Positions 8,981 through 39,304 of a stretch of 41,405 nucleotides of DNA are shown one piece after another. Numbering within the stretch: the stretch's first letter is position 1; each line of letters starts with the position of its first letter. The position numbers were made by a program, and so were the translations under genes. The DNA comes from a virus: the IMG/VR virus record IMGVR_UViG_3300009034_000098, positions 1-41,405 of that record; one strand, written 5' to 3'. The notes under the pieces are model-generated. The model ran no database searches and was not told the DNA's origin. It worked only from the letters and a program-made list of their open reading frames with translations.

Positions 8981-11062
8981 TCACGAATCACCTCGCGATT
9001 TCATGATTTTCAACAAATCCTTGCTCTTTAAACTTTCAATGGGTTCTAGTGCCCTTGTGATAATATCTGCAATGCGCTTGAGATAGTAATTCTCATCTAT
9101 GTCCTCTCTTCCGGCCAACTCAACAACACTGTATCCAGTTACTGTCTTGACGTATTTTGCGGTGTCACCGACGAATATCTGTATGCCGTGGTTCGCAAGC
9201 TGCTTCTCCAGCTGCGCGTACAGGGAATTGCCCTCGTAGTTCACCTTGTTGAAGCTTGCCTTCATGACGAAATCCTTGAGATCCTCTGGCATCATGACAA
9301 TGTCATCCAATATGGAACGCCAGTTCCCGTCAGCAAAGAGCACGCTTATCAGCCTCTGAAGCGCCCTGTCGCAAACCGCCGGGAGATGCTTCCCCTTCAG
9401 CGAAGCGCCATGGAACAGCAGATCGCCGTTCTCCTTCAATAGCACATAGTTCTTCTCGTTCGTGAACAGCCCGGCCTTGTAGTGGTCAACGTCCAGCTTT
9501 ATGAATTTCTTCATGTAGTCATCTGGGACAAGATCGCAAATCGCCTTTTCATAAGCTTGGATTCGCGCTTGCGACAGCCTCGAATTCGCGTAAACACCGT
9601 CTGTATCGGCCTCGATCCTTGTCGGTTCCATCGCGCAGACGCTCTTCAAGAACCAGCGGCCTATCGCCGTCGTCAGTATTATGACGAGAACGCTACCCCA
9701 TTTCGCGTACCTAAGACCGTGATAGCCCGATGCCGCGTTCATCACAAGCTTAACGACCCAATACTGCGATTTAGCCAACGGATCTGTGCGCGAACGCGGC
9801 TTCAACGCGGCCTTTGTCTTTATGAATCTGCTCAAAAACACCCTTGTTGCCGAATCTTGCGATAAATCTATCCTGCACGTCACATCGCCAATGATGTTGT
9901 CAGACACCGTTATCTTGTCGCCGTCAAACCTCGGCGCTTGATCTGTGAATTCGCTTATATCAACAAGTGTCACGCTGTATGGATCGAAGTTCCCCATGGC
10001 CATTATCGCCGGGTACATATTGACGAAGTCGATCTTGTCGACGGGCCTGAATATCCCAGTTTGGAATATGTCAACATAACCGCCCTGATAGCACTTCCGC
10101 GATCTGGAGCCAAATATGCTCGGGAACCGCGTCTGATTGTCGCCAGAATACGGAATGCCCCTTTTCAAGAAATCTCTGCCGTAAATGTAATTGGGTATGT
10201 GTGACGGCGTCCTGGTAGTTATCAGATTCATCGGGAGCCGCATGTCCTCCGCGAGCTGCTTGAGATTCATCATGTACGTCTTCGCCAGTATGTAAGTGAG
10301 CCGCGCATCAGAGAGATTGTAGTCAAGCAGATCGACGGTGTTAAGCAGATTCACCGCACGCCTGTCGACTTCAACAACGTGCTTTATCTTCAGGAACTTC
10401 GCCACAGCCTTCAAACCGACCCCCTTTATGCCGTTCAGGCTCTGGTCGTACAGCACCTCATCGAATACATCAAAGTGCAACCTGCCGTCAATATCTATCC
10501 TCCGAACCTTGAATCTGTCTCCCGCAGATGCCGCATTGTCAAATTTCCTATATATAACAACAGGCTCTGATCCGTCGCGCCCAATACTTACAGGAATACC
10601 GAACCGTTTCCCTGTGACTAGCGCCATAAGCATATCGTAGCGATTAGCAAAGTATCCGGCAATGATATCAGGATCTCGCTCGTTTATCGTATCAATGAAA
10701 AATGTCAGTACGTCAATAGGATTGTCGCTCTTGTAAACGCTGGCATAACCATCGCCCCAAAAAGCACAAGATAACAATGTGTCGCGATCTGGATTCGGCG
10801 AAATCCCCTTAGATATCGACTCGAAGTCATACGCGAGAATCTTCTCATCTTTGCTTTCGTTCACGAAACCGAAGGCCGCAGCGATCTTCTGTATTAATGG
10901 CATTTCTCTTGGTAGTCGGTTTATGATCTCCCAATCCGGTATGCTGACGGCGAAAGACTCCCCTCCCGGCAAAACAACGTTCACCTTGCTCTTCCCAGCA
11001 TAATTCGCTGAAAGAACGTAGGCTTCCGGTAGCTTCAACGAAATGGGATTCTCACCGCGCAT
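8981..11062 (-). CDS. polB: family B DNA polymerase with 3'-5' exonuclease
   Basis: 693 residues. Exonuclease motifs: YDFES (D79, E81), FANRYD (N140, D143) and YNLSD (Y248, D252). Polymerase motifs: A as DFVNMYP (D345), B as KLVMNAASGYHG (K438, N442), C as ADTDGVY (D486, D488). All catalytic acids are present, so both activities are probably intact. The protein is shorter than cellular archaeal PolB enzymes, as is usual in viruses. It is the first gene after the promoter at 11111-11122 and so can be expressed separately from the tail operon. It would extend primers laid by the primase-helicase at 573. Confidence 0.96.
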   Translation of the reverse strand: MRGENPISLKLPEAYVLSANYAGKSKVNVVLPGGESFAVSIPDWEIINRLPREMPLIQKIAAAFGFVNESKDEKILAYDFESISKGISPNPDRDTLLSCAFWGDGYASVYKSDNPIDVLTFFIDTINERDPDIIAGYFANRYDMLMALVTGKRFGIPVSIGRDGSEPVVIYRKFDNAASAGDRFKVRRIDIDGRLHFDVFDEVLYDQSLNGIKGVGLKAVAKFLKIKHVVEVDRRAVNLLNTVDLLDYNLSDARLTYILAKTYMMNLKQLAEDMRLPMNLITTRTPSHIPNYIYGRDFLKRGIPYSGDNQTRFPSIFGSRSRKCYQGGYVDIFQTGIFRPVDKIDFVNMYPAIMAMGNFDPYSVTLVDISEFTDQAPRFDGDKITVSDNIIGDVTCRIDLSQDSATRVFLSRFIKTKAALKPRSRTDPLAKSQYWVVKLVMNAASGYHGLRYAKWGSVLVIILTTAIGRWFLKSVCAMEPTRIEADTDGVYANSRLSQARIQAYEKAICDLVPDDYMKKFIKLDVDHYKAGLFTNEKNYVLLKENGDLLFHGASLKGKHLPAVCDRALQRLISVLFADGNWRSILDDIVMMPEDLKDFVMKASFNKVNYEGNSLYAQLEKQLANHGIQIFVGDTAKYVKTVTGYSVVELAGREDIDENYYLKRIADIITRALEPIESLKSKDLLKIMKSRGDS

Positions 11063-17684: not shown

Positions 17685-18045
17685 AGCTAATTTCACCTCT
17701 ATTTATTTTTCCGAAATCATCAAGCATTCTAAAAAAAGCTTCCCAGACAGGTGGACGCCAAAACGGTCTTTCGTGCATAAACCTTGTACCGAATTCAACA
17801 AAAACAGCATACGGGACACCGATGACACCACCGGATATTTCCGGAATACTCGGATCCCAATCTATGATACCAATTTTCGACTGTAGATTTCCAGTGCGCA
17901 CTGAAACAATGATTCTCGAGATCGCCACAGCCTCGCTCATCCTAACAAGCATCACCGCAGCAACAGACTCGACAATGTTCGCGCGATTCTTGAAGCGCGT
18001 CAGTAATCTGTCGCTTACTCTAATCTCCATTGTGAACGGGCACAT
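17677..18045 (-). CDS. HK97 gp10-like head-tail/tail completion protein
   Basis: 122 residues from ATG 18045 (GGAGG nine bases upstream). The family signature is visible: SVRTGNLQSKIGI, then a beta strand with GGVIGVPYAVFVEFGT, then ERPFWRPPVWEAF. Relatives close or connect the head-tail interface. In most siphoviruses this gene lies before the tail tube gene; here it is after the chaperones and before the tape measure, so the order is rearranged. It overlaps the end of the GT frame by 26 bases. Confidence 0.85.
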   Translation of the reverse strand: MCPFTMEIRVSDRLLTRFKNRANIVESVAAVMLVRMSEAVAISRIIVSVRTGNLQSKIGIIDWDPSIPEISGGVIGVPYAVFVEFGTRFMHERPFWRPPVWEAFFRMLDDFGKINRGEISYA

Positions 18046-18558
18046 TTTTCAAATCCTCCGCAAGCAATACCATTTCGCTTGCGATTCTCAGAACGCTCAT
18101 GGCATCAACTTCCATTTGCGTCCAGCCATAATGCCTAGCGAACCTATGGTATATTACTTGTCTCAGGGCTCTATCCCTCTCTACTATCTTCTCGGATTTC
18201 TTCTTATCGGGCAGCAGATCTTTAAGTACCCTGTCAATCCTCTTCTTCGTTACTCGTTTTCTTTTGTAAATGAGGATTGCTGCGGCGATGACTCTAAAGG
18301 GGCTTTCGTCAAACCCAATATCGCATTGTAGAGCTGATTGCCCTCGGCTTCAGGAAGCGCGTTTATCTGCTTTTTGTCAAGTTTCGGCGAAACGACTCCT
18401 CTCTCTATGTACATGATTCTTGCTAGTCCCGGCCTTATCTTGACCTTGCCAGTTTCCGAATCGCCTAGACTGATCTCATCAAGTATCTCATTGCGCTCAC
18501 CGAACGTCAACGCACGGATCTTGTACTTCTTCTTCGTGACTACGCCAGTGATCTCCAT
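18020..18558 (-). CDS. tail assembly chaperone GT fusion (programmed -1 frameshift)
   Basis: The frame from 18310 to TAG 18020 has no usable start of its own but is protein-like for 96 codons (ESPFRVIAAAILIYKRKRV, then ALRQVIYHRFARHYGWTQM). It lies in the -1 frame relative to the G protein, and a perfect slippery heptamer G GGT TTG at 18316-18310 lies where the two frames overlap. A slip there yields a fusion of about 179 residues. This is the lambda G/GT arrangement between tail tube and tape measure genes; the fusion recruits tube subunits to the tape measure. The frameshift is inferred, not measured. Confidence 0.85.
18250..18558 (-). CDS. tail assembly chaperone G
   Basis: 102 residues from ATG 18558, preceded by AGGTGG; GTG 18567 is the alternative. 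The product opens with a strand pair (ITGVVTKKKYKIRALTFGER) like other G-type chaperones, which coat the tape measure during tail assembly. It is the normal termination product; the frameshifted GT form shares its first 83 residues. It follows the tail tube gene, the conserved place for this pair. Confidence 0.82.
   Translation of the reverse strand: MEITGVVTKKKYKIRALTFGERNEILDEISLGDSETGKVKIRPGLARIMYIERGVVSPKLDKKQINALPEAEGNQLYNAILGLTKAPLESSPQQSSFTKENE
18310..18316 (-). promoter_or_regulatory. slippery heptamer GGGTTTG for -1 frameshifting
   Basis: On the minus strand, zero-frame codons GGT TTG preceded by G make the canonical X XXY YYZ form. Both tRNAs can re-pair after a one-base slip to GGG TTT. 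The -1 frame is open from here for 97 codons, while the zero frame ends 20 codons later. Lambda uses GGGAAAG at the same place. Confidence 0.8.
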
Positions 18559-18567
18559 CAGTACCAC

Positions 18568-19503
18568 CTAAGGTATTGTCGTTATCGTCGGGACGCCAAG
18601 GACCTCTGCTGTTATCTTCAGCTCTATCAGATCGACTTCCCTGATTGGCGCCGGGAATTCCTTCCACTGACATGTCGGCAAGTTTATCTGCCTTCCGCCG
18701 GAGCCAGTAGGAACATGTATCTCTATGTCTCGAGTCGTGTCTCCAAGGAAATCCGTCAGCTCGTTTGTACTGTCGAAATCGAGAGTCAATGACACTTCCA
18801 TCGACAATCCGACTTCAGAGAATTTCGCAAACAATGTACCAGCGCCAGTTTTTGATCCACGTTTATTAATCTCCCGCCTCATTGTGAACTCAAGCGCTTG
18901 CAGCCTCTCGATGATGCTTGCTGAGTTATATTCAACATCGCAATCCGCAAGTCTTATGTATGACTCAGTAGGGAATGTCTTTCTGTCGGCCGTTCCTTGG
19001 ACATAATCCACTGTTCCGTGGGTCTTCTTCTGCGAGACCAGAGAGTACAGCAATTTCATCGGATTCTCGAGATCGACCTTCAATGTGATCTCGTTGGGCT
19101 TGCACCCGACAAATGTCAGATACTCGTCTGTCGTCAGATCCAGCTTCGCGCCAACTACCGTCGAAAAGCAGTGCTTCTCGAGATTCACAGTAGCAGCTAC
19201 GGCGTCCGCGCCCCATATAGCCGCGTAAGGATTCAGCCACTCGTACTCCTCGCCAACCGTCACGTCCTTCTTCAGCAGTTCCGCCTCGACAAGAAGCTCG
19301 GCGTATTCCTTCTGGAGGCTGAGCTCCTTCGGGTACTGCCGCCCTATGCCGACCCTCGGCTTGTATACTGGGCGCCGCTTGCCGTCGAACCCGATGACGT
19401 CGCCGAAGAACTGCCATGTCCCGGACTGTGGTATGCCCCCGAATGTCGCTTCCTTTATCCACATCGCCTCAGTTACGTCAAATCCCGCTCGAACGTCTGC
19501 CAT
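18568..19503 (-). CDS. major tail (tube) protein
   Basis: 311 residues from ATG 19503, behind GGAGGAAATG. The pattern fits a tube protein: an N-terminal arm (FDVTEAMWIKEATFGG), a beta-rich middle with paired long strands (NEITLKVDLENPMKLL), and a late beta segment ending ELKITAEVLGVPTITTI. The place directly before the G/GT chaperones is the standard one. The subunits stack into the tail tube around the tape measure. Confidence 0.85.
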   Translation of the reverse strand: MADVRAGFDVTEAMWIKEATFGGIPQSGTWQFFGDVIGFDGKRRPVYKPRVGIGRQYPKELSLQKEYAELLVEAELLKKDVTVGEEYEWLNPYAAIWGADAVAATVNLEKHCFSTVVGAKLDLTTDEYLTFVGCKPNEITLKVDLENPMKLLYSLVSQKKTHGTVDYVQGTADRKTFPTESYIRLADCDVEYNSASIIERLQALEFTMRREINKRGSKTGAGTLFAKFSEVGLSMEVSLTLDFDSTNELTDFLGDTTRDIEIHVPTGSGGRQINLPTCQWKEFPAPIREVDLIELKITAEVLGVPTITTIP

Positions 19504-22857: not shown

Positions 22858-22940
22858 TAATTCAGCAACTCCGTGACCACAACTCCAACCCTCAAAGCAT
22901 CCATACGATCTAACAAACAATAAATCTATGCAAACAATGC

Positions 22941-22956
22941 CTTATATACGTTTCCC
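22941..22956 (-). promoter_or_regulatory. archaeal promoter for the leftward (tail) arm
   Basis: On the minus strand GGAAACG followed by TATATAAG makes a BRE-TATA pair. Transcription would begin near 22918-22920, about 60 bases before ATG 22857. Confidence 0.75.
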
Positions 22957-22970
22957 GGAAATTATTAGCC

Positions 22971-22986
22971 AGAAATATTTATATAT
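22971..22986 (+). promoter_or_regulatory. archaeal promoter for the rightward (capsid) arm
   Basis: AGAAATA followed by TTTATATAT (22978-22986) is a strong BRE-TATA pair. Transcription would begin near 23010, leaving a leader of about 27 bases before ATG 23037. The two divergent BREs lie back to back within 20 bases, so one bound regulator could control both arms. Confidence 0.8.
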
Positions 22987-23036
22987 CACGGAATAGTTTA
23001 ATAATAGCATATAATTATAGGAGTATAAGTGAAAGC

Positions 23037-24869
23037 ATGGATTGGAAAGAGAACGAAGATCTTATTTTCAGCAACCATCGAGATATCGAGAGCTTTGATA
23101 AAGATTCCATTGAAATCGTATATGTCGATAAGGAACGGGGAATATTCCTTTTCGCAGGAAACTTACCAAAAAGCGAAGAAGGCAGTGATGTTGGCGGAAT
23201 GTACGAGCAATCATTTGCGTTCCTGAAAGAAGACGGCTGGGACCTTGAGAAGGCGAAGAGCTGGTTCTACGCGAACCGGGGCAAAGAGTCGTTCAGCTGG
23301 GTCGGCGATGTTGAAGTCGTCCCCGGCAAGAAGCTGATCCGAGGGAAAGCGATACACCCGGTCAAAACGTACCACCCGAACGAGTGGCCGAAAGTGCGAA
23401 AGTATCTCGAGAGCGAACTCAAAGCCAGCGCTGAATCCCTTGTTGGCGTCCCGCTAATACTAGATCATTGGCGGATTCTACCGTATAAAGTTACCGGCGC
23501 CAAGTATGAAGATGGCGCGCTCGAGTTCGTCGCCGAATGCGATGATGAAGTGATACTGCAAAAGATCCGCAATAAGGCAATCGCGCACATGAGCCCGGAA
23601 TTCAAATGGGGAATCCTCGAACACCAGGAAGACGGCTCGATCGCCCCGAAGAACATAAAGTTCAGTGCATTGTCCCTTCTGGAATTCCTTCCACCAGGCG
23701 ATCCGCAGTCGACTGTCGAAGTCTGGGAAGGCGTGATGAACGGTGTTGGAAAACACATAGCCACCATCAGAGAGCTCGGGGAGTTCCTTGCCGGAACGAA
23801 ACGGCCAACCAATATTATAAAGGCGAAACCAGCAGATCCCGCATTGCAGAGCCTAGAAGACCATCTCGAATGGTCCTTGCTCAAGGAAAGAACCATAATA
23901 TTCCACGGATACGTCGGCCAATTCTCGTGCGAGAAGGCCCTAAGGCGACTGGAGTTCCTCGCAAACGAAAGCTCGGAGCCGATACGCGTCATCCTCAACA
24001 GCGTTGGGGGCGGCGTGTATGACGGGCTGCTTGTCTACGACACGATAAGGAAGCTCGCCGAAACCGGCACGAACATAGTTTGCGAGGCCCGAGGCCTTGC
24101 CGCAAGCATGGGCAGCATACTATTGCAGGGCGGGACGGAGCGGGTAGCGACGCCGAACACGAGATTCCTGATACACGAAGTCAGCGATTTCATGTGGGGA
24201 AAGACGAGCGAGATCGAGGACGAGGTCGAGGAGCTAAAAAAGGTCAACGAGATGATGGTCAAAATCCTCGCTGAGAGGACCGGGCGCTCGCCGGAAGAGA
24301 TACACAAGATATGGCACAAGAAGGACGTCTGGATGTCGGCAGAGGAGGCTTTGAGATTCGGCCTGATAGACAAGATCGAAGCCGGCGACCCGAAACTCGC
24401 GAAGGCGATCAACGAATACACGTTCCTCAAAGAGAGCCTCGAGATTTCCGCAGGTCAACCTACTGGATTTTCCCTGACGCCCGAGGAAGTCGACGAGATA
24501 CTCGGCGAGCCATTTGGCGGCTTCAAGAATTGGGAAGCATGCGAGAAGGCGCACGCGGACAAGAAGAACCCCGCAGCGTATTGCGCCGCCATAAAGGCGA
24601 AGACCGAGGAAGCTAAACTCGCCGAAGCCAGGGCTGAGATGTTCCAGGAGATAGCGGACTTGCGCAAGGAACTGAACGAGAGCAAGAAAGCCGCGGATCT
24701 CTCGAAGGAAGAGGCCGCAGTCGACAAGGCAAACATGAAACAGCTGATAGAGGACGTCGAAAGCGCTTTGCCGAGGCCCGAAATACTCAGATTCGCCAAC
24801 GCCACTGGAACCAGAACCGTGCAGTCAGTGAAAACCGTTCTGCTGAAGTACAAGGAGAAATCCAATTGA
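23037..24869 (+). CDS. prohead protease fusion: HK97-like protease + ClpP-like protease + scaffold
   Basis: 610 residues. Residues 85-230 follow the HK97/XkdF-type prohead protease plan: GVPLILDHW with His (H144), then HMSPEF with Ser (S186), then SLLEFLPPGDP. Residues 280-450 are a ClpP domain with its whole triad: GLAASMGS (S357), FLIHEVS (H380) and KKDVWMSAEEA (D430). Residues 490-525 carry FKNWEACEKAHAD and PAAYCAAIKAK, then a coiled-coil tail that could be scaffold. It would shape and process the prohead built from the capsid protein at 25617. A copy of the 13-bp repeat lies in the ClpP-scaffold linker. Two protease folds in one chain is the oddity; the first is less certain. Confidence 0.85.
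   Translation: MDWKENEDLIFSNHRDIESFDKDSIEIVYVDKERGIFLFAGNLPKSEEGSDVGGMYEQSFAFLKEDGWDLEKAKSWFYANRGKESFSWVGDVEVVPGKKLIRGKAIHPVKTYHPNEWPKVRKYLESELKASAESLVGVPLILDHWRILPYKVTGAKYEDGALEFVAECDDEVILQKIRNKAIAHMSPEFKWGILEHQEDGSIAPKNIKFSALSLLEFLPPGDPQSTVEVWEGVMNGVGKHIATIRELGEFLAGTKRPTNIIKAKPADPALQSLEDHLEWSLLKERTIIFHGYVGQFSCEKALRRLEFLANESSEPIRVILNSVGGGVYDGLLVYDTIRKLAETGTNIVCEARGLAASMGSILLQGGTERVATPNTRFLIHEVSDFMWGKTSEIEDEVEELKKVNEMMVKILAERTGRSPEEIHKIWHKKDVWMSAEEALRFGLIDKIEAGDPKLAKAINEYTFLKESLEISAGQPTGFSLTPEEVDEILGEPFGGFKNWEACEKAHADKKNPAAYCAAIKAKTEEAKLAEARAEMFQEIADLRKELNESKKAADLSKEEAAVDKANMKQLIEDVESALPRPEILRFANATGTRTVQSVKTVLLKYKEKSN
24454..24466 (+). repeat. dispersed repeat copy R1 (GTCAACCTACTGG), inside the protease gene
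   Basis: First of five same-strand copies. Here the sequence is coding (GQPTGF) in the linker between the ClpP domain and the scaffold-like tail. Its 20-base context 24452-24471 is identical to 29179-29198 near the recombinase gene. Confidence 0.85.
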
Positions 24870-25111
24870 ACGTAGCACGGGTGAAACAGGCGCTCGCCGG
24901 TTTTTCACCGCCGCTGTCGCCTAATGATATTGATACAATAGCACAACGGATTGTTGAAATATCGACATTAGAATTAGCAACTAAGGATAGAATCATCAAA
25001 GGCTTAAGAACTCGGATAAGAAATCTGAAAGAGAAAACCAAGAAAACAACGAAAACTGAGAAACCGAAAAACCCAGAAAAATCCCGCGTAAAAAGGATGC
25101 TGAAACTTTAA
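24866..25111 (+). CDS. small basic helical protein
   Basis: 81 residues from TTG 24866, overlapping the protease stop as TTGA and preceded by AAGGAG. A helical N-terminal half (SPNDIDTIAQRIVEISTLEL) is followed by a strongly basic tail of Lys-Thr repeats ending SRVKRMLKL. Place between protease/scaffold and cement genes suggests a head morphogenesis role, but the family is not recognised. The gap to 25187 holds only the ribosome site of the next gene. Confidence 0.65.
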   Translation: MNVARVKQALAGFSPPLSPNDIDTIAQRIVEISTLELATKDRIIKGLRTRIRNLKEKTKKTTKTEKPKNPEKSRVKRMLKL

Positions 25112-25186
25112 ACTAACCCATAACACGGTTGGAGGTTGTAGCCTAACTAGACGGCGAAGCCTAAACGAAAATTGGAGAAAAGCAAA

Positions 25187-25603
25187 ATGGCAAGCGTAGA
25201 TAATTTTCCGGCATTAGCCTTAGGAGATTGCCTCGACGAGAAGCAGGCAAGCATACACCCATTCAAGTGCGAGTCTGGCGTGACGAAAGGCCAGATAGTC
25301 ATTTTCGACACGAACACAGTTGCTGAGCTGCCTAGCGTGTCCACCGCTGGCGCTGCCGCTGCTAACTGTCTTGGTATGGCGCTCAAAACCGGCGCTGCTG
25401 GCGAAGTCATACCGATCATGACGCGAGGGATCGGGAAGGTCACCGCCTCAGGCGGGATAACCGGCGGAGTGCACATCGTCTCTGGAGCGTCCGGGGTCGT
25501 TGTGACAGTCGGCGCAAACACGTTCGAGAAAGTCATAGGCAGGGCAATACAGACGTTCCTAACGACAGACACCGGCCTTGCGTTCATAAATTGCGAAAAT
25601 TAA
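25187..25603 (+). CDS. capsid cement/decoration protein (DUF2190-like)
   Basis: 138 residues from ATG 25187 (GGAG upstream); TTG 25172 in frame is less likely. The pattern matches DUF2190-type cement proteins: HPFKCESGVTKGQIVIFD, then ANCLGMALKTGAAGEVIPIM, then GIGKVTASGGITGGVHIV. Trimers of such proteins bind capsid three-fold sites and stabilise the shell. Found directly before the capsid protein gene, as usual. Confidence 0.8.
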   Translation: MASVDNFPALALGDCLDEKQASIHPFKCESGVTKGQIVIFDTNTVAELPSVSTAGAAAANCLGMALKTGAAGEVIPIMTRGIGKVTASGGITGGVHIVSGASGVVVTVGANTFEKVIGRAIQTFLTTDTGLAFINCEN

Positions 25604-25616
25604 TCTGGTGATCTTC

Positions 25617-26540
25617 ATGGAAGACAACAAGTTAATGGAAGCAATCGTCAACGATCCAGAGCTCGGCGAAGCGTCATGGAACGAGCTGATGGCGAAAGCA
25701 CAGAACCACCCCTTCTACGCAAAGATACTCAAAGAAGGCCTTTACAGGGACGTTGCCGGTGCCTTGGGCGCCGTGCAGGCAACTGTATGGCCGATCGCCT
25801 GGGAGAACGCAATAGGCAGGGAGCTAATCAAGGTCATGCGGACGACGAACGCGCTTGAGAGGTTCCCGAAGGAGATCAAGGCTGTCGCGTACGAGAGCGG
25901 AGAAGCCCCCCCGATGGGCACAGGCGGCAGAGTTGAATTCACCAACGTGGAAGCGAACATCGAGATATCCGCGAAGAAGGAGTGGACGCAGGGCTACATT
26001 GAAGACGCCGCATGGAACGTTCTGCAATACCAGTTAGGAGCCATCGGCAGGGCACTGGCGAAGAAGGAGTCGCAGAAGATCATTTCCATATATAATGCAA
26101 TTGCCGCTGGGAACTTGGCGACTGGGGCCGAGATCACGATCACGGATAACGCGCCGACTTGGGCGCAGGTCGTCGATCTGGTCAGCGCCGTTGCCGAGGC
26201 TGACTATGTTCCCGAGGTCGTCGCCATGAACGCGCCCGAGTTCGGGTACTTGTTCAACCACGACCAGTTCATAAGTTCTCTGTACCTTCCGCACGGACAG
26301 GCGGACATCAGGAAGGGCGTCGTATACCACAGCGGGCTTGGCGTCAAATTCGTCAGGAGCACTCTCATCTCGAAGTCCCTCTGCATCGACACCAACGCGT
26401 CCGGGGTATTCCTGCTCCGCAGGGAAGTGAACACGAAGCCGTACGAGGACCCCGCGAACGTCAAGTTCGGCGTCCAAGGGAACGAGAGATACGGGTGCGG
26501 AATGCTAAGGAACGATGCCGTAGCTAGAGGAACCAACTAG
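25617..26540 (+). CDS. major capsid protein (HK97 fold)
   Basis: 307 residues from ATG 25617, with GGTGA upstream; GTG 25608 is the alternative. The N-terminal helical part is followed by WPIAWENAIGRELIKVM, a long spine-like helix region (ALAKKESQKIISIYNAIAAG), the A-domain segment EVVAMNAPEFGYLFNHDQF, and late strands (GVFLLRREVNTKPYED, KFGVQGNERYGCGML), which is the HK97-type order. It lies behind protease and cement genes. The gene is followed by a T-tract terminator, so it ends the first capsid transcript or is strongly expressed. Confidence 0.92.
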   Translation: MEDNKLMEAIVNDPELGEASWNELMAKAQNHPFYAKILKEGLYRDVAGALGAVQATVWPIAWENAIGRELIKVMRTTNALERFPKEIKAVAYESGEAPPMGTGGRVEFTNVEANIEISAKKEWTQGYIEDAAWNVLQYQLGAIGRALAKKESQKIISIYNAIAAGNLATGAEITITDNAPTWAQVVDLVSAVAEADYVPEVVAMNAPEFGYLFNHDQFISSLYLPHGQADIRKGVVYHSGLGVKFVRSTLISKSLCIDTNASGVFLLRREVNTKPYEDPANVKFGVQGNERYGCGMLRNDAVARGTN

Positions 26541-26565
26541 GACTGAAACAAGAACATGCACAAAT

Positions 26566-26580
26566 CCCCCCCATTTTTTT
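26566..26580 (+). terminator. T-tract terminator after the capsid gene
   Basis: CCCCCCC-CA followed by seven T residues, 25 bases after the capsid stop. The same C-run plus T-tract form occurs at 34214 and, shorter, at 36915. Confidence 0.75.
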
Positions 26581-26602
26581 ATTCAAAATCAAGGTGATTT
26601 AA

Positions 26603-26893
26603 ATGTATCCGAAAGTCGGCCACGCCTGCGGAACCTGCCCGGTCTGCGGAAAAGAGCATTGCAGACCGAGGCCGCAAGAGTACGTGTACTGCGACTGCTG
26701 GAAGTTCTGCCCGGACGACCACGGCACCGGCCCGTACACCACGCCGATGAAGGACTTCACTCCGGACGCATCCATGGGCGCAGCGTACGATACTGAGAAG
26801 GGCATCCTTGTCGTCAAGTATTGCGACCATGCGGACCATAGCGAAGGTTATTATTACAGTAAGCAATTGCCTGTGGAGGTAGAGCTCGAATGA
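26603..26893 (+). CDS. Cys-rich zinc-binding protein
   Basis: 96 residues from ATG 26603 (AAGGTGATTTAA upstream). CGTCPVCGKEHC and CDCWKFCPDD make two likely zinc sites, and a C-terminal strand pair (GILVVKYCDHAD, YYYSKQLPVEVE) follows. It lies between capsid protein and portal genes, behind a terminator, so it may be an inserted accessory gene or a head protein. Family not recognised. Confidence 0.75.
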   Translation: MYPKVGHACGTCPVCGKEHCRPRPQEYVYCDCWKFCPDDHGTGPYTTPMKDFTPDASMGAAYDTEKGILVVKYCDHADHSEGYYYSKQLPVEVELE

Positions 26894-27159
26894 ACAACCG
26901 GCGAAAGGGAACGACAATGCTCTCCAGACAGATGAAGCTCATCAAGGTATTGCTTAAAATATTGGGAAGGAAACCGCCAACTGAAAAGCTGTGGCGGTGG
27001 ACACCCCTGCAAACGAAATTCATGATAGAGACGGAGGCTTCGCCGGCAGAATTCTACCAGACCGTCAGGTACTGCATGAAGCGCGGCTGGATAGAAAAGC
27101 CGAAGCGCGGAACGTATATCCGAACAAAGAAGGGAGAGGCGCTCCTTGAAGCGCTTTAA
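26890..27159 (+). CDS. winged-helix DNA-binding protein
   Basis: 89 residues, ATG 26890 overlapping the previous stop as ATGA. After a basic N-terminus, TPLQTKFMIETEASPAEFYQ and TVRYCMKRGWIEKPKRG are the helices and wing of a winged helix-turn-helix, ending KKGEALLEAL. It could repress one of the TATA promoters. A regulator between capsid and portal genes is unusual. Confidence 0.75.
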   Translation: MNNRRKGTTMLSRQMKLIKVLLKILGRKPPTEKLWRWTPLQTKFMIETEASPAEFYQTVRYCMKRGWIEKPKRGTYIRTKKGEALLEAL

Positions 27160-27184
27160 ACACAATGTGAGGAAGAAGTAAAAC

Positions 27185-28579
27185 ATGTCAGTAGTCAGAA
27201 AATATCTGAAAAGAATAAAACCCGCAATGCACGAGTCGATAATAAAAAGAGACAGACCCAAGGTCACAGATTTTGAGGTCCCCGAAGTCGACAAAAGCAT
27301 GGGAGAAAGACCGATAATAGATTTCAACACAATGACGAGCGTCTACCGAGCCGACATTGTCGCTGGAGCTTCCGTCGATTTCCTCTGGCAGCAAACTGCC
27401 GGCGCAGGGTTCCATACAACAATGAACAAAAAGGAAGAAGAGAATCGCGTCAAAGTCGAACTCGTAGACAATAGCACTATTGAAGTCAACGCAAAAGAAC
27501 TCATCGACATATACAACAGAGGAATAAATGCTTTTGGAAAATTACAGTATAGCGCTAGGGATCTTTGGGCCACGGGGAACGCGTTCATTTACATCCCGCA
27601 AGGCGATATCTTTTTCCCGAGATATCTGCCTCTTGAATCTATCGAAATGATCTTGCGCGGTGAGAAACGCGATTGGATTCCAACAGGAAATTATAAAGTC
27701 GGTTACAAACTGCTTTCAAAGTATGGCGGGAAACTAATACAACCAAGTCATATGAAACACCTCATGTGGAACGTCATAAATGATGAGGCTTTCGGCACCG
27801 GCATAATCCAGCGGCTTTGCCTGAAGCTGCCGTTGGGCTCTGGCGACTCAAGGATAGAACCGTACAAGATCGCCGGAAGACTTCAACAAGCAATGATAGA
27901 CCAATTCGAGTTGTTCAGCGGGCCAAACGAGCTGTGGAATTTCCCCGGAATAGACAGCAAGACGCTGAAGAAATTTGATGCGAAAGTTAAAGCCCTACCA
28001 AGAAAGGGCAAAAGACTAACATCAAACGTTAAGGACGCAAGAGCAACGCCAGTAGTTGCCGAGAGATCGAGGGGTTTCGACAAATACGTCGACTACCTAG
28101 ACACTATATACGTTATCGGAACGCAGACACCAGCCGCAAGATTCTTCTCAGCCGCAGGATTCAGCGAAGCATCGATACGGGAAATACGCAGGATACTCCA
28201 GCCGCAAATAGTCGGCATGCAGAAGTTTTTGAAATATTCCATGGAAGAGCTCTTCTGGAAGCCAGTCCTTGAAGGATACGGATTTGACATAAACAAGGCG
28301 CAAGTTCGTCTCATATGGGAAACAGCGAAAGTGTTCGAACCGGAAATGATGCTGAGAATGCTACCGTTCCTAGTCAGAATGGCGGAGAACCGCTCGATCA
28401 AAGTTGAGGAATTCCGGAGAATACTCAGAGACATGCTCGGGTTGCCGCTAGACAAAGACGACAACGTTAAAATGGTAACAGCCGAACAGAAGAAGACGCC
28501 GTCGCCAAAAGCGCCCTCGCCAAGATCCGGAGAAGTTGAATTAACACAAGAGCAAAGGGGGCCGCAAGTAAACCCATGA
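27185..28579 (+). CDS. portal protein
   Basis: 464 residues, ATG 27185. Pattern of phage portals: the N-terminal ASVDFLWQQTAGAGFHTTM, a stem region with DLWATGNAFIYIP, a helical region with TPAARFFSAAGFSEASIREI, and the late KVFEPEMMLRMLPFLVRMA. Twelve copies form the DNA gate of one capsid vertex and bind the terminase encoded at 4877. Portal downstream of the capsid gene, and separated from terminase on the other strand, is unusual for tailed viruses. It tends to ATA and AGA codons like other right-arm structural genes. Confidence 0.9.
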   Translation: MSVVRKYLKRIKPAMHESIIKRDRPKVTDFEVPEVDKSMGERPIIDFNTMTSVYRADIVAGASVDFLWQQTAGAGFHTTMNKKEEENRVKVELVDNSTIEVNAKELIDIYNRGINAFGKLQYSARDLWATGNAFIYIPQGDIFFPRYLPLESIEMILRGEKRDWIPTGNYKVGYKLLSKYGGKLIQPSHMKHLMWNVINDEAFGTGIIQRLCLKLPLGSGDSRIEPYKIAGRLQQAMIDQFELFSGPNELWNFPGIDSKTLKKFDAKVKALPRKGKRLTSNVKDARATPVVAERSRGFDKYVDYLDTIYVIGTQTPAARFFSAAGFSEASIREIRRILQPQIVGMQKFLKYSMEELFWKPVLEGYGFDINKAQVRLIWETAKVFEPEMMLRMLPFLVRMAENRSIKVEEFRRILRDMLGLPLDKDDNVKMVTAEQKKTPSPKAPSPRSGEVELTQEQRGPQVNP

Positions 28580-33609: not shown

Positions 33610-33798
33610 ATGGTCAGGAAACCCAAAATAATGCTACCAATAAAGCAGAGGAACCCGACGCTCAAGCAGGAATCCGCCGACGTGTTCGTCATCGACATAC
33701 CCGAGGACTTCGCGGACTGGAAGAAGGAGTTCTACGGAGGCATACGCGGCAAGACGCGGGGCTGGAAGCTAACGCTAACAAGGCACAGAAGGAGGTGA
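33610..33798 (+). CDS. small protein of unknown function
   Basis: 62 residues from ATG 33610 (GGAG nine bases upstream). A basic start (VRKPKIMLPIKQR), an acidic middle (SADVFVIDIPEDFADW) and a basic end rich in Arg. Its stop overlaps the AbrB-like gene as GTGA, so the two are co-expressed. A partner role for the regulator is possible. Family not recognised. Confidence 0.65.
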   Translation: MVRKPKIMLPIKQRNPTLKQESADVFVIDIPEDFADWKKEFYGGIRGKTRGWKLTLTRHRRR

Positions 33799-34190
33799 GC
33801 ACGATACCAGAAGGAGAGACAATCGTCAAGACGGGGCGAGACCCGCACTGGAGGCCGGTCATGATGAGCCGCAATACCGCGATGTTCACGATACCGGTGG
33901 ACGTCAGGGACGCGGCAAACCTAGTCGGCATCCACAACGAGGGCAGGGGCGCGATGATAACGTGGGACAAGGACGCCCAAGAGATACGCGTCAGCGTGAT
34001 CGACCCGGCGACAGGCGAGCAAGGGTACGAGAAGCCTAAGCCGCAGGTCGTCGTGAAGAAGCCGAAGACGAAGACAAAGAAGGAAAAGGCCGCGGAGAAG
34101 AAGGCAGCGAAGGAAGCCGCCAAAGCCGAAGCCGCAGAAGCCAGCGAGACCTCGCCCGAGGAACCGGCCGAAGTCCCAACAGAGCCATAG
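33795..34190 (+). CDS. AbrB-like regulator with acidic/basic tail (paralogue 1)
   Basis: 131 residues from GTG 33795, overlapping the previous stop as GTGA. Residues 20-70 have the swapped-hairpin pattern: SRNTAMFTIPVDVRDAANLV, then ITWDKDAQEIRVSVI. A Lys/Ala-rich then Glu/Pro-rich tail follows. The protein at 38975 shares RNTAMFTIP and the Arg-Asp turn, so they are paralogues. AbrB-type proteins bind DNA as dimers and control gene expression. The GTG lies inside GGAGGTGA, which is odd for a ribosome site. Confidence 0.65.
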   Translation: MSTIPEGETIVKTGRDPHWRPVMMSRNTAMFTIPVDVRDAANLVGIHNEGRGAMITWDKDAQEIRVSVIDPATGEQGYEKPKPQVVVKKPKTKTKKEKAAEKKAAKEAAKAEAAEASETSPEEPAEVPTEP

Positions 34191-38974: not shown

Positions 38975-39304
38975 ATGGAGGTGAGTAAAATAAAAAATGA
39001 TAACAAAGAATTGGTCCAAGATGGCAAACGGACACTTGTCAAAGAAAAGACACCCAAAAGTTCAACTATCAAAGATCCTCAGAAGTTAGTCACAAAAGAC
39101 CCAACTTTGTACAGACCAATAATGTTCTCTAGAAATACTGCTATGTTTACAATTCCGAGCACAATCAGAGATGACGCCAAGCTCGTTGAACTCTATAATG
39201 AGTCCCAAGGTGGCATTGTAAGTTATAACAAAGAAAATAACTCTATAGTTATATTTCTCGGTTATAAGAGACCAAGGAAACAGAAAGTGATCACAAAGAA
39301 ATGA
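38975..39304 (+). CDS. AbrB-like regulator (paralogue 2, AT-rich)
   Basis: 109 residues from ATG 38975; GTG 38981 aligns better with the start of the paralogue at 33795. The core FSRNTAMFTIPSTIRDDAKL and then GIVSYNKENNSIVIFLG matches it, and the N- and C-terminal parts are Lys-rich. Codon use is strongly AT-biased while paralogue 1 is GC-rich, so one copy came from another source. It is the last gene of the rightward arm and has its own promoter. Likely DNA-binding regulator, possibly of the nearby AT-rich site. Confidence 0.65.
   Translation: MEVSKIKNDNKELVQDGKRTLVKEKTPKSSTIKDPQKLVTKDPTLYRPIMFSRNTAMFTIPSTIRDDAKLVELYNESQGGIVSYNKENNSIVIFLGYKRPRKQKVITKK

Follow-up and report, generated by a model that had tools for sequence, protein, structure and literature searches.

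The window, by which we mean the whole 41.4-kb stretch of DNA analysed here, is a single metagenome-derived virus record with its tail genes on the minus strand, and the interval 18020-18558 is read as the reverse complement. A gene for the tail tube (major tail) protein lies immediately upstream of a short ORF, G, for which two start codons come into question, ATG 18558 with GGTGG upstream or GTG 18567, the former being the more likely (Table 1). The zero-frame stop of G, at 18252-18250, falls inside a second frame, T, which is displaced by -1, open over 18349..18023 (109 codons) and closed by the stop codon 18022-18020. The earliest ATG of the T frame is at 18115, 78 codons in, and a search for an independent start finds neither ATG nor GTG nor TTG before it, leaving T with no plausible start of its own. 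The two ORFs overlap as in a G/GT pair, the second being a start-less -1 frame, and a shift at the heptamer GGGTTTG would join 83 residues of G to 96 residues of T in a 179-aa G-T fusion. An earlier sequence-only reading had described a zero frame and a start-less -1 frame of 96 codons that overlap at GGGTTTG, and frame analysis finds this description to be exact.

Table 1. Coordinates of the G/T overlap, its sequence elements and the adjoining tail genes in the window
Feature	Position	Strand	Basis or description
Tail tube (major tail) protein gene	18568..19503	-	PF18906 Phage_tube_2, E 9.1e-11; phrog_290, E 1.6e-9
G, zero-frame ORF	18250..18558	-	102 aa from ATG 18558; presumed tail-assembly chaperone; ORF list and sequence
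T, -1 frame	18020..18349	-	Stop-to-stop, 109 codons
Slippery heptamer G GGT TTG (site 1)	18310..18316	-	X XXY YYZ phase
Second slippery heptamer C CCT TTA (site 2)	18295..18301	-	In phase, inside the overlap
Possible stimulatory RNA structure	18220..18294	-	8-bp stem CAAUCCUC/GAGGAUUG, 29-nt loop, after CCCTTTA
Neck1/tail-completion-like gene, 122 aa	17677..18045	-	phrog_5, E 1.4e-8
Presumed short tape measure protein, 325 aa	16719..17696	-	Composition, C-terminus, position

On the other side of T, the neck-like gene, with GGAGG before its ATG, shares 26 nt with the end of T and separates T from the presumed tape measure gene; its similarity to TIGR01725 (HK97 gp10) is below the cut-off (E 0.0024). 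A neck1/tail-completion gene usually stands before the tail-tube gene. The tape measure candidate has no family match in Pfam, PHROGs or NCBIfam. The location first proposed for the pair, between tail tube and tape measure, is only loosely correct: the tube gene is indeed upstream, but the neck-like gene intervenes and the tape measure is presumed.

We find two independent signs that T is coding-like. On a score built from the codon usage of the window's other genes, the part of T outside G and the next gene reaches a log-odds of 0.181 per codon, above the 99th percentile (0.082) of stop-free out-of-frame segments of the same length (median -0.137), the median of true genes being 0.197; the -1 frame had earlier been called protein-like, and on this score it is. 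Removing T would open a gap of 204 nt, wider than any other intergenic gap in the minus-strand block (median 0). The openness of the -1 frame is in itself weak evidence for T, with 903 of 7180 out-of-frame segments of 67 codons (about 13%) free of stops, and in the overlap region neither frame's codon score is clearly better. A plus-strand ORF of 169 aa that lies over T (17822..18331) was ruled out, all plus-strand frames being negative in codon score there.

Slippery heptamers and downstream RNA

Two heptamers of the X XXY YYZ form lie in phase within the overlap, G GGT TTG and, 15 nt downstream of it, C CCT TTA. The sequence-only reading had reported the first, which is in phase as described but is not unique; the second had gone unreported, and there is more doubt about the precise site of slippage than that reading had allowed. 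In-phase XXXYYYZ heptamers occur at 0.45% of codon junctions, and the overlap, which is 100 nt long, would contain one by chance with a frequency of 13.5%, or 19% with synonymous recoding of G, and two with a frequency of ~0.9-1.1%; a single heptamer is only mildly significant. Folding of several window lengths found no robust stimulatory structure 3' of the heptamers and one marginal window, of 75 nt, in which the stem listed in Table 1 has z about -2.2, a signal that fades at other window lengths. A known frameshift element was sought in Rfam and gave no match.

The shift may occur at C CCU UUA (18301..18295) rather than at GGGUUUG, with function unchanged, a lesser possibility that we nevertheless take seriously. 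The codons of this site, in phase within the overlap, are rare in this genome (CCT 4.3 and TTA 7.5 per thousand), and the best-folding downstream window begins directly after it. By standard decoding rules, a Pro tRNA with anticodon GGG would re-pair perfectly with CCC at this site, whereas re-pairing on G GGU UUG would, with the usual set of host tRNAs, be imperfect in the third position of each of the two codons; by these rules C CCT TTA is mechanistically at least as good as GGGTTTG. Against this, C CCU UUA lies closer than GGGTTTG to no fixed landmark, and GGG-led heptamers are usual in the tail chaperones of the archaeal viruses compared (Hardycor1, HATV-3). G GGU UUG is plausible as the slip site because a similar heptamer, G_GGU_UUU, ranks among the most shift-prone on mammalian ribosomes (review of frameshifting, PMC5009743). 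On balance the site used is probably GGGTTTG, CCCTTTA or both being less likely, and another route unlikely. That the two form a double shift site, with G GGU UUG and C CCU UUA in tandem both used by an archaeal ribosome and setting the G:GT ratio, strikes us as rather doubtful. The predicted products differ at the junction: a shift at site 1 would give the junction peptide QINALPEAEGNQLYNAILGLDESPFR (fusion ...ILGL-DESPFRVIAAA...), and a shift at site 2 a fusion that reads ...ILGLTKAPL-RVIAAA...

The virus, its relatives and comparable tail genes

The window carries genes for a terminase large subunit, a ClpP-type head maturation protease and a tail tube, with a weak capsid match in addition, and the virus is a tailed virus of the class Caudoviricetes. 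The head genes (protease, capsid, presumed portal; 22920..28579) run on the plus strand and the tail genes on the minus strand, diverging at about 22921-23036; the terminase gene lies far from the head genes, on the minus strand. The protease gene (23037..24869, plus strand) encodes a 610-aa protein with the ClpP-type domain at residues 280-447, assigned to head maturation by PHROGs, and about 280 residues ahead of that domain are without a Pfam match. Two small plus-strand proteins (33795..34190 and 38975..39304) have the motif FSRNTAMFTIP in common and on this basis look like diverged paralogues; neither has a PHROGs match, and the former has no Pfam match. For a family B DNA polymerase (PolB; 8981..11062, minus strand), the relatives in phage records are limited to those of Salinibacter phages and a single Leptospira phage, with identities of 20-25%.

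Close relatives of the virus were found by no route, whether among viral contigs, genome contigs or phages. Scans of viral contigs with one protein at a time (G, tail tube, terminase, capsid) returned no relatives, a PolB scan and a terminase-alignment scan of genome contigs were both empty, and terminase- and PolB-alignment scans of viral contigs returned only distant module relatives. None of the 50 records of these distant relatives matches the window's tube protein, and PF18906 is found in only two of them, both times below the cut-off. A scan with the N-terminus of the tail tube returned only HATV-3 (Pyrstoviridae, NC_062757), a haloarchaeal virus whose gp29 is the only informative tail-tube match, and a weak one: it is 34% identical to the tube N-terminus over 56 aa with a pairwise E of 9e-7, and reaches only E 4 in a database search. 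This similarity, together with the TATA-box-like sequences TTTATATAT and GTATATAAGG in the divergent region 22921-23036, makes an archaeal host likely; the virus had been called archaeal outright, and the two clues agree with that label while falling short of proof.

The locus shares with lambda G/GT (G GGA AAG) a short zero-frame ORF after the tail tube gene, an in-phase XXXYYYZ heptamer near its end and a start-less -1 extension. The window differs from lambda in its heptamer, G GGT TTG, in having a second, C CCT TTA, and in the neck-like gene between T and the presumed tape measure gene; no sequence similarity to lambda was detected. The same layout of tube, G and -1 T recurs in HATV-3 (gp29-gp30-gp31), where G GGA AAC is in phase at the very end of gp30, overlapping the stop region, and is accompanied by a start-less -1 frame. 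HATV-3 has one heptamer where the window has two, and its T leads directly on to the tape measure gene, whereas the neck-like gene intervenes in the window. Judging by the heptamer in the last part of gp30 and by the open -1 frame, gp31 looks like the T portion of a fusion made by frameshifting; in the deposited annotation, gp31 starts at an internal ATG (NC_062757, L089:7203-7771). Hardycor1, which also has a haloarchaeal host, presents tube, G, -1 T and tape measure in a layout as in the window, with a published -1 site, G GGA AAT, in HrrHc1_110/115 (PMC7911831), and its tube protein is 34% identical to HATV-3 gp29 over the length of the latter. Direct similarity of the Hardycor1 G and T to those of the window was looked for and is nil, and the window's G and T are not alignable to those of HATV-3 either; because of this, the two viruses are no test of the conservation of the window's heptamers, and their likeness supports the gene layout instead.

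Among archaeal tailed viruses with halophilic hosts, -1 frameshifting is reported for HVTV-1 and HCTV-1/2/5 and +1 frameshifting for HSTV-2 (PMC8211752, PMC5009743), and PMC5009743 reports frameshifting in archaeal tailed viruses for the tail G-T protein. Frameshifting shown in Archaea is scarce, one cellular case standing beside viral ones inferred from sequence (2021 review, PMC8211752). The window's GGGTTTG had been singled out as differing from lambda's GGGAAAG, which it does, but such a departure is not new for archaeal viruses, given G GGA AAT in Hardycor1 and G GGA AAC in HATV-3. A literature text search for GGGTTTG/GGGUUUG gave no tail-chaperone paper among the matches listed. Frameshifted tail chaperones are already known across siphoviruses and in archaeal viruses, and the window is another example, from a very divergent virus.

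A probable G/GT-type chaperone pair and its alternatives

We find that the locus is best explained as a G/GT-type (lambda-type) pair of tail-assembly chaperones made by -1 frameshifting, to which we assign a probability of roughly 0.85. The heptamers, the start-less -1 frame, the coding-like T and the upstream tube gene all point this way, as the sequence-only reading had proposed, although it overstated the slip site, the adjacency to the tape measure gene and the novelty of the heptamer. The identity of G rests on position and architecture because it has no family match: neither G nor T matches a chaperone family in Pfam, PHROGs, NCBIfam or PDB sequences, G is unmatched even at permissive E-values, and tblastn of the G-T fusion against phages returns nothing even at E 10. 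Tail chaperones diverge fast, and absent similarity is no strong negative. AlphaFold modelling of G by itself gave no usable structure (pLDDT 42).

In the mechanism that we infer, which extends to slippage, the heptamer used, its efficiency and chaperone function, most ribosomes would translate G only (about 102 aa), while a minority would move back by one base shortly before G ends, either on G GGU UUG or, 15 nt further on, on C CCU UUA, and by reading on into T would produce a fusion protein, G-T, of about 179 aa. If the proteins act as they do in lambda, G would attach along the tape measure protein, and the fusion would use its T portion to recruit tail-tube subunits (PMC5009743). The G:GT ratio would, as in lambda, be important for tail assembly.

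T might instead be translated independently: ribosomes could reinitiate once they have finished G, or they could use a start that is internal or non-canonical, such as ATT 18319 or ATG 18115. The G stop lies inside T, which makes translational coupling conceivable, and ATT 18319 is in the T frame; we consider this route very unlikely, however, as the first 78 codons of T hold no conventional start, a protein begun at ATG 18115 would be no longer than about 31 codons, and no well-spaced ribosome-binding site is seen in the sequence before either candidate. It is highly improbable that G and T are one ordinary gene whose frame was broken within the GGGTTTG or CCCCTTT run, either by recent mutation or by an assembly error of one base, even though the record is a single metagenome-derived one, the fault would fall in short homopolymer runs, and codon scores favour neither frame clearly in the overlap: the break coincides exactly with the place of the programmed shift in siphoviruses and has heptamers in phase there, and the same split, each time with its own heptamer, is present in HATV-3 and Hardycor1. 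The chance that T is no gene at all, its -1 frame being open by accident as in about 13% of out-of-frame segments this long, we regard as slight in the extreme, given that T exceeds the 99th percentile of those segments in codon score and that its absence would leave a 204-nt hole in a block of mostly touching genes.

A frameshifted G/GT-type pair at this locus corrects the annotation, since ordinary gene calling would miss T or reduce it to a fragment. With it, the conserved frameshift of tail chaperones reaches a virus, probably archaeal, that is without a close relative in the collections searched. With its two alternative heptamers, this testable site is a useful if modest addition.
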